A DNA stretch of 64,000 nt. It comes from Thermoplasmata archaeon (GTDB lineage Archaea; Thermoplasmatota; DTKX01; VGTL01). Each line of letters opens with the position of its first letter. The stretch's first letter is position 1. The notes below the pieces were generated by a model. The model was not told the DNA's origin. It saw only the letters and a list, made by a program, of their open reading frames with translations, and did no database searches. Made by a program: the position numbers and the translations under genes. The DNA lies in the NCBI GenBank assembly GCA_038851035.1, contig JAWCLH010000002.1:62001-126000 (forward strand), written 5' to 3'. Below are positions 18,832 through 61,089 of this stretch, piece by piece.

Positions 18832-19212
18832 ATGGCACTTTGGCAGGGAAGGTCGAGGCGCAAACCGACAGGAGGTATGTATCACCCATTCCGGAAAAAG
18901 AGGAAAACCGAGATAGGCAGGGAAGTCCAATTGGCCACGATAGGTGCAACGAAAACCAAGAAGGTGAGGGTGAGAAGCGCCCATTATAAAATCAGGGTCT
19001 TACAGGGTGATACAGTCAACTTGCTAGACCCGAAAACGAAGAATGTCCAGAGGGTCAAGATTCTCACAGTGCTAGAAAATCCCGCCAACCCCCACTACGT
19101 CCAGCGCAACATCATCACCAAAGGTGCAATTCTCAAAACGGAACTCGGGCGAGCCCGCGTGACATCGAGGCCTGGCCAGCACGGGGTCCTCAACGCGGTC
19201 TTGATTGAGTGA
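18832..19212 (+). CDS. rps8e: Ribosomal protein S8e
   Basis: A small-subunit ribosomal protein found in archaea and eukaryotes. The 126 residues begin MALWQGRSRRKPTGG and hold the family core (GATKTKKVRVRSAHYKIRVL and NPANPHYVQRNIITKGAI), ending with GQHGVLNAVLIE. ATG 18832 follows ACGGTGAGAT. The frame stays open for 750 bases upstream, but that extension has no family match and lies on the antisense of uppP. SRP19 follows after ~28 bases, an arrangement common in euryarchaea. Confidence 0.97.
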   Translation: MALWQGRSRRKPTGGMYHPFRKKRKTEIGREVQLATIGATKTKKVRVRSAHYKIRVLQGDTVNLLDPKTKNVQRVKILTVLENPANPHYVQRNIITKGAILKTELGRARVTSRPGQHGVLNAVLIE

Positions 19213-19240
19213 GTCCCAGAGAACGTGAGGAGGGGGCGGC

Positions 19241-19522
19241 ACGCCTTCCCGGAAAGAGGGGCTGCTTGTTCTGTATCCCGAGTACTTCGACGCCACTCTG
19301 AGTAGGCGGGAAGGCCGGAGGGTGCCAAGAAAGCTGGCGAAGGAGCGTCCCACGGTTCAACAGATTTTGATGGCCGCGCGCTCAACAGACCCCTCTCTAG
19401 AACCCCGAGTGGAGGAACGCGCAGCCTTCCCCGGTCGTTGGTGGGCTCAGGGAGGAAGAGTGCTTGTGAGAAAGAAGCATGCCAAGCAAAAACTTCTAAA
19501 AATAATTGCACAAAAACTCTAA
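19241..19522 (+). CDS. srp19: Signal recognition particle 19 kDa protein, no standard start codon
   Basis: SRP19 binds 7S RNA and prepares the signal recognition particle for SRP54. The product contains the conserved run LYPEYFDATLSRREGRRVPRK, then KERPTVQQILMAAR and the RWWAQGGRVLV segment, ending in a basic helix. Homology requires translation to begin before LYPEYFD. Between the in-frame TGA at 19226 and the GTG at 19322 (well inside the conserved region) there is no ATG, GTG or TTG. Candidates are ACG 19241, well placed behind GTGAGGAGG, or CTG 19262 behind AAAGAGGGG. I give the longer form. A sequence error is the other explanation. Confidence 0.85.
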   Translation, partial: TPSRKEGLLVLYPEYFDATLSRREGRRVPRKLAKERPTVQQILMAARSTDPSLEPRVEERAAFPGRWWAQGGRVLVRKKHAKQKLLKIIAQKL

Positions 19523-19672
19523 AAGAAAGTCTACGGCAAATGTCGAAACTATCATTTAACAATATGCGAAAAGAGAAGCGCTATCTTTATATCCATGTAT
19601 GATTTTTTATGAAACTGTGATTTCCCATTGAGGGAATCATAATAATCAGAAAGAGCGAAAAAGGTGAGGGAT

Positions 19673-21757
19673 ATGAATGTGAAGGTACGGAAAGGAGCGA
19701 CGCTGCTGGTGACGCTAGGTTTTCTTTTCAGCGTCCTGGTGGCGATGGGAGCGCCCTCGGGAGCGTCCTCAGCTAGGGCAGGTAACTTTGACCTCTCCAT
19801 TGCCTATAAAAATGCAGAAAATAGCTCCGTAACAGAGGGTGCGGTTGGGGTGCTTGTCAAAATAGAGGTCACCGTTGGAATAGCGGCCGGCGGAACGAAC
19901 GTGAACCAACTCATCGTGACACTCTTCATTAACGACCAACAGTACGGAACGCCGGAGGGGCCTTTCCCCCTAAGCTCCCCCAACACCAAAACGGTGACTT
20001 GGGAGTGGACCCCGGACACCTACGGCGACTTCCACATTAAAGTCACGGCAATAAACGACGACGACCAACAGACCCTAACCGATAAGGAAGACACTTTCAC
20101 CGTGCGGGGATCGGATCTCAAGTTGGGCGAGGTCACGGTATCCCCAGGAGAGGCTGTAATCGGGATTGACGAGGTCACCATCACAGCCAGGGTCTCGAAC
20201 TCCGGGAACGCCGATGGGATAGCCAACGTCACCTTCAAGCTTGATGGTACGCTGTTAGTGGGCAACAACGAGACCACCATTCCCGCAAGCAGCCACAAAG
20301 ACGTGATACTCGTCACCACATTCGAGGGTTTACGGATTGAGGACGGGGAGCATTATATAACAGCCGTACTGAACGGACAAACCAATAACTCTCCACCGTT
20401 CTCGCTCGCCAACCCAAGGCCAGACATCCAGTTGAAGCAGGAACCCACTGCGGAGCCGCAGGAGGTCACCATTACTAAAGGGGCTGAGGTCAATGTCACC
20501 ATCACGGCAGTCCTGACAAACGCTGGGAATGTGCCGGCGGTGGACTTCCAGGTCAGCTTCTATGTAGACGACACACTTGCCCCGGCGGCAACGGTCACCA
20601 TAACAGAGGCGGTAGAGCCGAACGGCACCAAAAGCGTTGAGTGGAACTGGCTAGTCACCGACGCAACCCCTCTGGGCAACCACACGATCTACGTAGGTGT
20701 GGGCAGCCAGACCGACTGGCCCTACTGGGCTTCTGTCAACATCACTGTCAGGGGTGAGGCTCATCTCTTTATCCAGAACCTGACGGTCTTCCCGGAGGCC
20801 GAGTTCGAGGGAAGCACGGTCACGATAACCGCGACTGTTGCAAACGACGGTACCGCGGACGCTGTTGATGTCCCCGTGACCTTCATCGTCGGGACTGAGA
20901 CCGTTGAAACCAAGAACGTGACGGTTCTCAAGGGCGCCATAGAGAATGTGGTGTTCACATGGACTCTCCCAGAGGTCGAGGCAGACACCGAATTAACTGT
21001 CAAGGTCGCGGTTGCTGGTTTCGAGAGGTCGGCCAACCTGACGGTGAAAAACAGAACACCCGTGATAAACATTACGGACTTCGTCGTGCCAGCCGAGCTT
21101 AGAATCGGCGATGAGGTAGAGTTCAGAGCAACCATCAAGAACGAGGGCTCGGGCGACGCCATTGAGCTCCTGGTCGAGTTCTTCGACGGCACCACCAAGC
21201 TCACCAACACAACCATAAATCTGACCGCAGGCTCTACAAAGGACGTTGTGGTTATCGTGAATATCACGGGAATAGGCGACGTCAACCACACTTTCTACGT
21301 GAAGGCCTTGGGCGCCGAGAAGAACGTGACGGTGCTGGTGGGGCACAAGCTCGCCCCTGCGAACATCATAATAACTGGCTTCACTGTGAAGCCGAAGAAG
21401 AAGGAGGGGCAGCCCAAGGACAGCACCCAGAGCTACACGTTGACGATCACCCTAAAGAACACGGGAGAGCTTCCAGGAACGGTGGTGCTCAACGTCACCG
21501 AGGGAAAGAAGCTCCTGACCCCCATCCCCATCACCCTCCATATCGAGGGTGGCAAGGAATTCATCCAGAACATCACCTGGAAGGTCAAGGGTGAAGGGAA
21601 GCACACCGCGGTGGCGACCATATCCGGCGATGCGGCTGGTTCGCCCAGCACGAAGAGCGTCTCATGCGAGCTGCACTACACACCGGGCTTCGAGGCGCTA
21701 CTGCTCGTAGCTGCAATAGTGGTGGCTGCGGCGATGATAAGGCGGAGAAAGAAGTAG
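19673..21757 (+). CDS. CARDB-repeat surface protein with PGF-CTERM-like tail
   Basis: ATG 19673 follows AAGGTGAGG. A signal peptide (~1-32) ends at AGAPSGASSARA-type residues. About five CARDB/Ig-like repeats (~35-670) follow, each with an NxGxxxA..V.V.F turn (for example NSGNADGIANVTF, NAGNVPAVDFQVSF, NDGTADAVDVPVTF). Many N-x-S/T sequons suggest N-glycosylation. The C-terminus reads TPGFEALLLVAAIVV...RRRKK: the PGF motif, a short hydrophobic helix and a basic end, which define PGF-CTERM substrates of archaeosortase A. The protein is probably an abundant S-layer-like or adhesive surface component. It stands alone, with AT-rich DNA upstream and a strong T-rich terminator after the stop. Confidence 0.85.
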   Translation: MNVKVRKGATLLVTLGFLFSVLVAMGAPSGASSARAGNFDLSIAYKNAENSSVTEGAVGVLVKIEVTVGIAAGGTNVNQLIVTLFINDQQYGTPEGPFPLSSPNTKTVTWEWTPDTYGDFHIKVTAINDDDQQTLTDKEDTFTVRGSDLKLGEVTVSPGEAVIGIDEVTITARVSNSGNADGIANVTFKLDGTLLVGNNETTIPASSHKDVILVTTFEGLRIEDGEHYITAVLNGQTNNSPPFSLANPRPDIQLKQEPTAEPQEVTITKGAEVNVTITAVLTNAGNVPAVDFQVSFYVDDTLAPAATVTITEAVEPNGTKSVEWNWLVTDATPLGNHTIYVGVGSQTDWPYWASVNITVRGEAHLFIQNLTVFPEAEFEGSTVTITATVANDGTADAVDVPVTFIVGTETVETKNVTVLKGAIENVVFTWTLPEVEADTELTVKVAVAGFERSANLTVKNRTPVINITDFVVPAELRIGDEVEFRATIKNEGSGDAIELLVEFFDGTTKLTNTTINLTAGSTKDVVVIVNITGIGDVNHTFYVKALGAEKNVTVLVGHKLAPANIIITGFTVKPKKKEGQPKDSTQSYTLTITLKNTGELPGTVVLNVTEGKKLLTPIPITLHIEGGKEFIQNITWKVKGEGKHTAVATISGDAAGSPSTKSVSCELHYTPGFEALLLVAAIVVAAAMIRRRKK

Positions 21758-33425: not shown

Positions 33426-33535
33426 TGGTCCCGGCTGCCGGATTTGAACCAGCGACCTGAGGATGGCTGCGGGGCACCGGGCTTGCCCGGTCACCTACTA
33501 CAGTCCCCCGCTCCACCAGTCTGAGCTAAGCCGGG
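33426..33535 (-). tRNA. tRNA-Tyr (GUA) with 33-base intron
   Basis: Acceptor CCCGGCT pairs with AGCCGGG, then A73 and an encoded CCA. The D-arm is GCTC/GAGC, the anticodon stem GGGGA/TCCTC around CT-GTA-G, and the T-arm GCTGG-TTCAAAT-CCGGC. C1-G72 is the archaeal tyrosine identity pair. A 33-base intron (33465-33497) lies between positions 37 and 38, the standard archaeal site. A T5 run follows the 3' end. Confidence 0.93.
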
Positions 33536-45501: not shown

Positions 45502-45513
45502 GGCGGTGGGAGC

Positions 45514-46671
45514 CTGCTCGGACCGGAAGAGATCTCGAATATCATCCGCGAATACGATGAGAAGAGGGTGCGAATCGGGGCAATAGCCTCGCACTCGGCG
45601 CTGGACGTCTTCGACGGCGCCATCGAAGAGGGCTTCCGAACAGTCGCGGTCTGTCAGAGGGGCAGGGAGGCGACCTACGCCCGCTACTTTCGGGCCCTGC
45701 GGGACGGGAAGGGGAGTTTGCTCAGAGGCGTGGTTGACGATGTGCTCATCCTCGACAGGTTCTCGCAGCTGCTGGACGAGGCGAACCAGGAGGCGCTGAG
45801 GAGTACGAGCACGCTCTTCGTTCCCAACAGGGCCCTGACGTCTTACCTCTCCATTGAAGACGTCGAGGACAGACTTCGCCTCCCACTCCTGGGGAGCCGA
45901 AACCTACTAGCGAGCGAGGAGAGGGGGAGGGGAAGAGATTACTACTGGATACTAGAAAGAGCGGGTCTCCCCTTCCCAGAGAGGGTAGACGACCCCAGAA
46001 ACATAGACCGTCTTGTCATCGTAAAGCTGCACCACGCGGTCAAGAAACTCGAGAGGGGCTTCTTCACAGCCGCATCCTATGATGAATATAGGAAAAAGTC
46101 CGAGCAACTCGTCTCGCAGGGAGTGATAACTCGTGAGGACCTCGCCGGCGCCCGCATCGAGCGCTATATTATAGGACCAGTTTTCAACCTCGATTTCTTC
46201 TACTCGCCCATTGAGGACAAGATGGAGAGAATCGAGCTTCTCGGAGTCGATTGGCGGTTTGAGAGCAGTCTGGACGGCCACGTCCGCCTCCCGGCGCCCC
46301 AGCAGCTCACGCTCGGCGAGGACCAGCGTAACCCCGAATACACCGTCTGCGGCCACAACTCAGCCACGCTCAGGGAATCCCTCCTCGAGAAGGCCTTCGC
46401 CCTGGCAGAGAAATACGTCAAGGCCACGCAGGAGCACTACCCCCCCGGCATCATCGGCCCCTTTTGCCTCCAGACATGTGTGGACAAGGACCTCAATTTC
46501 TGGATATACGATGTGGCACCGAGGACAGGGGGCGGGACCAACATCCACATGTGGTTGGGCCACCCTTATGGAAACGCCCTCTGGCGCATGCCGATGAGCA
46601 CGGGGAGGAGGTGGGCGCGGGAGGTCAAGAGGGCAATAGAGACGGGGCAGCTCAATAAAATAGTAACCTAA
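45514..46671 (+). CDS. purP: FAICAR synthetase PurP (formate-AICAR ligase), proposed CTG start
   Basis: PurP is an archaeal ATP-grasp enzyme that formylates AICAR with free formate. The product shows IGAIASHSALDVFDGA, GSRNLLASEERGRG, IVKLHHAVKKLERGFF, the long substrate region to WRFESSLDGHVRLP, and the C-terminal APRTGGGTNIHMWLGHPYG, all typical. Homologues begin with a helix equivalent to LGPEEISNIIREYDEKRVRI. In frame, this helix starts just after CTG 45514, behind GGCGGTGGGAG. No ATG, GTG or TTG occurs before GTG 45568, which would delete it. The window also has purH, a second AICAR transformylase. Confidence 0.9.
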   Translation: MLGPEEISNIIREYDEKRVRIGAIASHSALDVFDGAIEEGFRTVAVCQRGREATYARYFRALRDGKGSLLRGVVDDVLILDRFSQLLDEANQEALRSTSTLFVPNRALTSYLSIEDVEDRLRLPLLGSRNLLASEERGRGRDYYWILERAGLPFPERVDDPRNIDRLVIVKLHHAVKKLERGFFTAASYDEYRKKSEQLVSQGVITREDLAGARIERYIIGPVFNLDFFYSPIEDKMERIELLGVDWRFESSLDGHVRLPAPQQLTLGEDQRNPEYTVCGHNSATLRESLLEKAFALAEKYVKATQEHYPPGIIGPFCLQTCVDKDLNFWIYDVAPRTGGGTNIHMWLGHPYGNALWRMPMSTGRRWAREVKRAIETGQLNKIVT

Positions 46672-60962: not shown

Positions 60963-60987
60963 GTGCCCTTGAACTCTTCGTAATAAG

Positions 60988-61089
60988 TGTCGGGGGGGGG
61001 GTTTGAACCCCCGGCCTCCGGATGTCGCAGAGCTAGAGGGTCTCTATCTCCTATGAGTCCGACGCTCCACCAGGCTGAGCCACCCCGAC
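60988..61089 (-). tRNA. tRNA with CAU anticodon (probably elongator Met), 28-base intron
   Basis: Acceptor GTCGGGG/CCCCGAC with A73, D-arm GCTC/GAGC, anticodon stem TCGGA/TCCGG around CT-CAT-A, and T-arm GGGGG-TTCAAAC-CCCCC. CCA is not encoded. The intron (61024-61051) lies after position 37, as is usual for archaeal elongator tRNA-Met. The initiator lacks introns and has A1-U72. tRNA-Ile2 (lysidine-like modified CAU) remains possible. Confidence 0.88.

Follow-up and report, generated by a model that had tools for sequence, protein, structure and literature searches.

The SRP19 locus

The window (the whole stretch of DNA analysed, 64,000 nucleotides of contig JAWCLH010000002.1 from an uncultured Thermoplasmata archaeon) carries on its plus strand a gene for SRP19, a core component of the machinery that targets proteins, just downstream of the gene for ribosomal protein S8e. 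The features that matter for its start codon are the following.

18832 to 19212, plus strand: ribosomal protein S8e, in a different frame from SRP19; its stop ends 28 nt before the ACG
19226 to 19228, plus strand: in-frame TGA, the upstream limit of the SRP19 frame, seen in sequence and translation
19227 to 19234, plus strand: Shine–Dalgarno sequence (SD) GAGGAGGG of SRP19, 6 nt before the ACG, duplex with the anti-SD of -10.6 kcal/mol
19241 to 19243, plus strand: ACG, proposed start codon of SRP19, placed by the exact ATG column in two relatives and by the register of the protein model
19241 to 19522, plus strand: coding sequence of SRP19, 93 codons and a stop when counted from the ACG, which aligns with the ATG of a sister genome
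19322 to 19324, plus strand: GTG, the first canonical in-frame codon of SRP19, inside the conserved protein and rejected as start

The frame is closed on its 5' side by the TGA and ends with the stop codon at 19520–19522; translated from 19226 to 19522, it reads GGGGTPSRKEGLLVLYPEYFDATLSRREGRR...KIIAQKL between the two stops, and the DNA that follows the TGA is GGGG-T-PSRKEGLLVLYPEYFDATLSRREGRR. Its identity is given by Pfam PF01922 (E 2e-18, 67.3 bits against a cut-off of 25), and the NCBIfam model NF001973 (SRP19) matches with 84.7 bits, under the model cut-off of 112. This is the single SRP19 match in the genome to which the window belongs (the window genome, 99.04% complete).

The first-pass annotation had described a conserved SRP19 core downstream of an in-frame TGA and without a standard start codon, and both points hold. 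There is no ATG, GTG, or TTG between the TGA and the conserved core, and the GTG at 19322 lies 27 residues in, past the YPEYFD...SRREGRR block, so that the N-terminal region, with both of these motifs, is complete only if translation starts upstream of that GTG. What one finds upstream of it, besides the absence of a canonical codon, is a codon one base from ATG with an SD at normal spacing. The missing canonical start is real and more than chance, because the stretch upstream of the GTG is conserved as protein and the sister genome (same family) has an ATG opposite the ACG (sister ATG CCT TCC AGG AAG GAG, window ACG CCT TCC CGG AAA GAG). Over the 30 aligned codons of this stretch, 24 residues are identical, and the differences at codon positions 1, 2, and 3 number 6, 4, and 13.

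S8e lies just upstream of SRP19 in the sister contig as well, judged from the preceding sequence, and translational coupling from S8e to SRP19 is possible. The 16S 3' end GGATCACCTCCT was found in both genomes, which confirms the anti-SD. Directly after SRP19 comes a large CARDB-repeat protein (19664–21757, plus strand), and a similar gene is present in the corresponding stretch of the sister.

Choice of the start codon

Two codons, ACG 19241 and CTG 19262, had been put forward as plausible starts; both are present at these positions, and of the two only the ACG has stood up. It is singled out because it combines the orthologous ATG column, the register of the protein model, and the SD spacing. 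Counted from the ACG, residues 4–93 fall on positions 4–91 of NF001973, with residue 4 on model position 4, and a class relative (Thermoplasmata archaeon, JAHFTX010000037.1) also has ATG in the ACG column. The CTG was rejected since the sister ATG aligns with the ACG, the residues PSRKEG between the two codons are conserved, and a start there fits neither the register nor the SD. Fusion to S8e, or readthrough from it, was dismissed as a source of SRP19 because S8e is in a different frame. Judged from sequence, the ACG appears to be the best start codon of SRP19 and is well supported as such; that ribosomes initiate there is what we infer from it.

Of 33 SRP19 loci compared by tblastn, 32 aligned. 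By a loose criterion (ATG, GTG, or TTG in the stretch that reaches from 40 codons before the alignment start to 3 codons past it), a canonical start is found in 31 of the 32, and the sole exception is the window locus itself; two contigs being duplicated, the 31 are 29 distinct loci. Orthologues that all begin with ATG in sister genomes had been named in the first-pass annotation as evidence against tolerated non-canonical initiation; that pattern is seen when SRP19 is taken alone, where it tells us that the ACG is derived and no more. A single T-to-C change from ATG in the lineage would be its simplest origin. In protein sequence and length, the window SRP19 is like that of related archaea, and it differs in its start codon only.

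It is very improbable that SRP19 starts at a canonical codon elsewhere, be it the internal GTG 19322 or a GTG at 19225 with either a +1 frameshift or an assembly error of one base after it. Both codons exist, and GTG 19225 overlaps the SD and adjoins a run of G, but a start at GTG 19322 would cost the protein 27 residues, including YPEYFD and SRREGRR, when the Pfam profile covers it from residue 10. A start at GTG 19225 would add residues before the ACG that are absent from the sister, whose protein starts at the ACG column.

A probable second gene in the window

The first-pass annotation had spoken of two essential-type genes with missing starts in the window, the second of them unnamed. Several frames in the window were flagged with coding signal above their first canonical start, and the one we judged comparable to SRP19, as a probable case, is a PurP-like gene.

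45514 to 46671, plus strand, in a frame that runs from 45502: PurP-like ligase (formate--phosphoribosylaminoimidazolecarboxamide ligase family), from the proposed CTG to stop
45505 to 45512, plus strand: SD-like sequence GGTGGGAG before the CTG, duplex of -10.3 kcal/mol

The frame scores over the cut-off with Pfam and under it with NCBIfam. CTG 45514 stands opposite an ATG in the sister (window CTG CTC GGA CCG GAA GAG ATC, sister ATG CTG GGG CGC AAG GAG ATC). By the loose criterion (40 codons before to 3 after the start of the alignment), 23 of 23 PurP loci have a canonical start, a set that includes the window genome's own second copy and, in several other genomes, the second paralogue.

Survey of conserved genes in two genomes

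A survey of conserved genes for missing starts, as the first-pass annotation had recommended, was run on part of both genomes, namely 1.61 Mb of the window genome (~60% of 2.69 Mb) and 0.71 Mb of the sister (~21% of the ~3.4 Mb listed), and it brought out further near-cognate starts in each. Reciprocal comparison gave 372 pairs, 326 of which were tested; some antisense frames remain among them, so this number is an upper bound on real genes. Of the rows compared, 71 were flagged, and those listed had three or more synonymous changes and differed more often at the third codon position than at the first, a filter by which cases may be lost. Flagged orthologue pairs were curated by eye, and antisense or shadow frames were dismissed by their codon-position pattern. 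SRP19 was not among the matches listed in the first coding-potential scan, and that scan therefore misses short genes.

Among the 326 pairs, we judged four genes of the window genome and three of the sister to have near-cognate starts. The window set, placed by alignment, comprises SRP19 (ACG), PurP (CTG), an OPT transporter (ACG; window ACG GCC GAC GAG TTC, sister GTG CCC GGG GAG TTC), and a ubiquitin-conjugating-enzyme-like (E2-like) gene (CTG). In the sister, these are the E2-like gene (ACG), an aldo/keto reductase with a CTG at most one residue from the window genome's ATG, and a secreted protein, where ACG CGG GCT directly follows a stop and precedes a signal-peptide-like stretch, behind GGGAGGTGG; this last ACG was placed by context, not by alignment.

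Contig C3:123605–124135 of the window genome, plus strand, and C3:51670 of the sister: E2-like gene

The E2-like protein matches Pfam UQ_con (E 2e-15) and solved E2 chains, and is 92% identical between the genomes. Its start column holds CTG in the window genome and ACG in the sister, which has only two codons (GGA ACG) between the stop and the conserved block. The 21 aligned codons that precede the first canonical start have 20 identical residues and differences of 2, 1, and 10 by codon position, and these codons look translated in both genomes.

In four more genes of the window genome, protein profiles cover residues ahead of the first canonical start; the SD was one of the criteria by which the exact starts of these genes were chosen.

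S27ae: putative start ATC GCC GAG AAG; covered by NCBIfam from residue 9 on, first canonical codon 19 in
Fibrillarin: putative start ATT CTG GAG CCC; covered by Pfam from residue 5 on, first canonical codon 26 in
DndD-like ATPase (contig C3, L052:9540–11516, minus strand): putative start CTG CTC ATC AAA; residue 1 on position 1 of TIGR03185 (E 3e-55, 188 bits, under the cut-off of 246), first canonical codon 30 in
Alanine-dehydrogenase-like protein: putative start CTG GTA GCG; covered by Pfam from residue 6 on, first canonical codon 49 in

Three other conserved upstream stretches were rejected as untranslated leaders, since both genomes have a canonical start, aligned between them, further downstream; the genes behind them are presumably S-adenosylmethionine-synthetase-like, PurH-like, and cyclophilin-like. 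Left out of the counts were an RND/MMPL-like gene of the window genome (C16:15231), three genes of the sister (a PIN-domain gene at C3:5081, a zinc-ribbon gene at C1:4005, and C1:60205, which we take to be radical-SAM-like), as well as C5:81491 (ATA, no Pfam match) and C21:14173, presumably a PAS protein.

Accuracy of the assembly

A wrong base in the assembly, whether from base calling, assembly, or strain consensus, could turn a true ATG into ACG, the more readily as the two are one base apart and the sister has ATG. One way of assessing this is to count damage elsewhere in the same assembly. Sister proteins of 273 pairs were scanned on the window genome over 97,857 aligned codons, and 31 best matches contained a stop and 2 were frameshift-like. 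One stop, a TAG in place of TGG near 94,590 of contig C6, was judged to be a real nonsense change within a gene, so that the assembly holds at least one such change; in the remaining matches the stops lie at alignment ends, in leaders, or in antisense-looking frames, as judged from the context listed rather than individually.

Taking one event, and a stop as the outcome of 4% of substitutions, one expects 0.065 damaged starts (0.08 at the measured 3.2%) among the 326 pairs, against the 4 judged present (P 7e-7 for 0.065). At the upper 95% bound of 5.57 events, the expectation is 0.36 (P 5e-4), and if all 31 stop-bearing matches were real, it would be ~2 against 4. The near-cognate starts also carry strong SDs. 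The best evidence against assembly error is the E2-like gene, which in two separate assemblies reads as non-canonical in the same column with different codons. By the error estimate and the further cases, a sequencing error is unlikely, and we consider it improbable that the true SRP19 start is an ATG.

The in-frame TAG on contig C6 near 94,590 (L132) stands opposite TGG in the sister, in a gene conserved on both sides, and may mark a pseudogene, an assembly error, or readthrough.

Shine–Dalgarno strength at near-cognate starts

The SD test covered six alignment-placed near-cognate starts: those of SRP19, PurP, OPT, and the E2-like gene in the window genome, and of the E2-like gene and the aldo/keto reductase in the sister. 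The four profile-supported genes were left out because their starts had been partly chosen by SD, and the SD value of the window genome's aldo/keto reductase, taken one codon off its ATG, was left out too. All six starts have an SD duplex of -10.3 kcal/mol or better at a spacing of 2–7 nt, a threshold that was set by the weakest of them and so favours the result. An equally strong SD precedes 89 of 480 canonical aligned starts (taken mechanically from aligned canonical columns, so that not every one need be true), and, out of 20,000 positions drawn at random, 359 have one in the window genome and 309 in the sister. Fisher's p for near-cognate versus canonical starts is 5e-5, and 2.5e-4 for the five exact-column cases alone. 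Compensation by a strong SD is not visible in every orthologue pair; that of PurP is equally strong in the sister, where the start is ATG.

Lineage trait or ordinary rate

From two such genes, the first-pass annotation had suggested that non-canonical initiation is tolerated in this lineage. The wider comparison supports the suggestion, with several independent near-cognate genes spread over two genomes of the lineage (four plus three, as well as the four profile-supported genes) and an E2-like gene that appears non-canonical in both. Relaxed initiation in the family, with independent support in the second genome, is plausible. A stronger statement, namely that start-codon selection is relaxed in the family, so that ~1% or more of conserved genes, including SRP19, fibrillarin, and S27ae, begin at ACG, CTG, ATC, or ATT with strong SDs and persist so through the divergence of the family, we hold tentatively, at just under an even bet.

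The near-cognate starts may instead be real and ordinary, with a similar low rate in many GC-rich prokaryotes that annotation rules hide, in which case the lineage is not special; we regard this as a live alternative to which we would give rather less than an even chance. Such starts are known in archaea, since ribosome profiling of Methanosarcina mazei places CTG at the start of ~5% of its unannotated small ORFs (as described in passages of PMC11456600), and published near-cognate rates rest on annotated starts. Against an ordinary rate, 4 of 47 start-codon switches between our two genomes involve near-cognate codons, compared with 6, to CUG or AUU, out of 799 switches by annotated starts in 36 groups of prokaryotes (the figures given in PMC5622118 for such switches), and CUG makes up 0.024% of bacterial starts (the value in the relevant passage of PMC11497404); the cases here also include conserved housekeeping genes. 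Control comparisons are compatible with a similar rate elsewhere. A same-genus pair elsewhere in the phylum gave no convincing case in 51 pairs, a small number and of another base composition (~34% GC), and 93 kb of a class relative gave no near-cognate case in the 17 frames tested, likewise few. These controls are not large enough to establish that the lineage is exceptional.

The passages on archaeal start codons in PMC7531240 name AUG, GUG, and UUG, and ACG, CUG, and "non-AUG" are absent from them. The literature searched, a scope outside which most subscription journals fall, yielded no account of conserved archaeal genes that start with ACG. The bacterial near-cognate starts CUG and AUU, as treated in passages of PMC11497404, likewise differ from AUG at one base, are presumably decoded by the initiator tRNA, and have an SD in the leader, whereas those proposed here are archaeal, include ACG with its second-base mismatch, and concern several conserved genes in two genomes, at ~1% of pairs. 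The M. mazei CTG starts (Ribo-seq, the same passages of PMC11456600) are also cases of archaeal near-cognate initiation; they concern unannotated small ORFs with translation data, whereas ours are conserved genes known from their sequence, and include ACG and probably ATC and ATT. Finally, the pairing of a weak start codon with a stronger or more conserved SD resembles that at GUG and UUG starts (parts of PMC5622118); the pattern here extends to ACG and CTG, and compensation within pairs is inconsistent.

If the reading is right, conserved archaeal genes can persist with start codons that the usual annotation rules disallow, and gene callers restricted to ATG, GTG, and TTG truncate or miss essential proteins of this lineage in databases. 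It would also give a comparative handle on the limits of start-codon choice in archaea: can a strong SD alone make up for a mismatch between codon and anticodon, even one at the second base?

Proposed initiation at the ACG codon

Archaeal initiation shares the factors aIF1, aIF1A, and aIF2 with eukaryotes. On the simplest account, SRP19 is initiated in the ordinary way at a mismatched codon, with strong SD pairing to favour it. The SD GAGGAGGG, at 6 nt, would hold the small ribosomal subunit at the ACG, where the ordinary CAU initiator tRNA would be used despite the second-base mismatch, and methionine would be the first residue of SRP19. Ribosomes may come from S8e, whose translation terminates 28 nt upstream. 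The same process would act at ACG, CTG, and probably ATC or ATT in about 1 in 100 conserved genes of the family, with strong SDs as the presumed cause that makes near-cognate starts tolerable. We put at about 0.8 the probability that ACG 19241 is the real start of SRP19, used by the ordinary initiator tRNA with the help of the strong SD, and that the same holds in about 1 in 100 conserved genes of the family. A figure that we count against an ACG start is the activity of CUG in well-studied bacteria, given in a passage of PMC11497404 as 0.86% of that of AUG.

Several near-cognate starts lie just behind the stop of another gene (SRP19 follows S8e at 28 nt, and frames of 329 and 145 aa end 12 nt ahead of PurP and S27ae, respectively), and coupling may therefore help. 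The sister aldo/keto reductase, with 51 nt, and the alanine-dehydrogenase-like gene fit coupling less well.

Two components whose alteration might relax start selection were inspected. Initiator tRNA is marked by the pair A1:U72 and by an anticodon stem with three G:C pairs, and a likely initiator tRNA with these features and the anticodon CAU is present in both genomes; none with another anticodon was seen among the CAU tRNAs inspected, a filtered subset of 81 tRNA calls. The factor aIF1 is reported, in the passages concerned of PMC6237735 and PMC8211752, to discriminate against non-canonical starts in archaea. Loss of aIF1 as the cause of relaxed starts was rejected since the gene is found once in the genome, with a basic loop that looks intact and ordinary. 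Both look ordinary; neither an altered initiator tRNA nor the loss of aIF1 was seen, and so no special factor among these two.

The window also carries a tRNA-Met(CAU) at 60987–61089 (minus strand) with a 28-base intron in the anticodon loop, which the default ARAGORN run missed, and a second Rfam tRNA match at 33429–33535 (minus strand) is of a length that could hold an intron.
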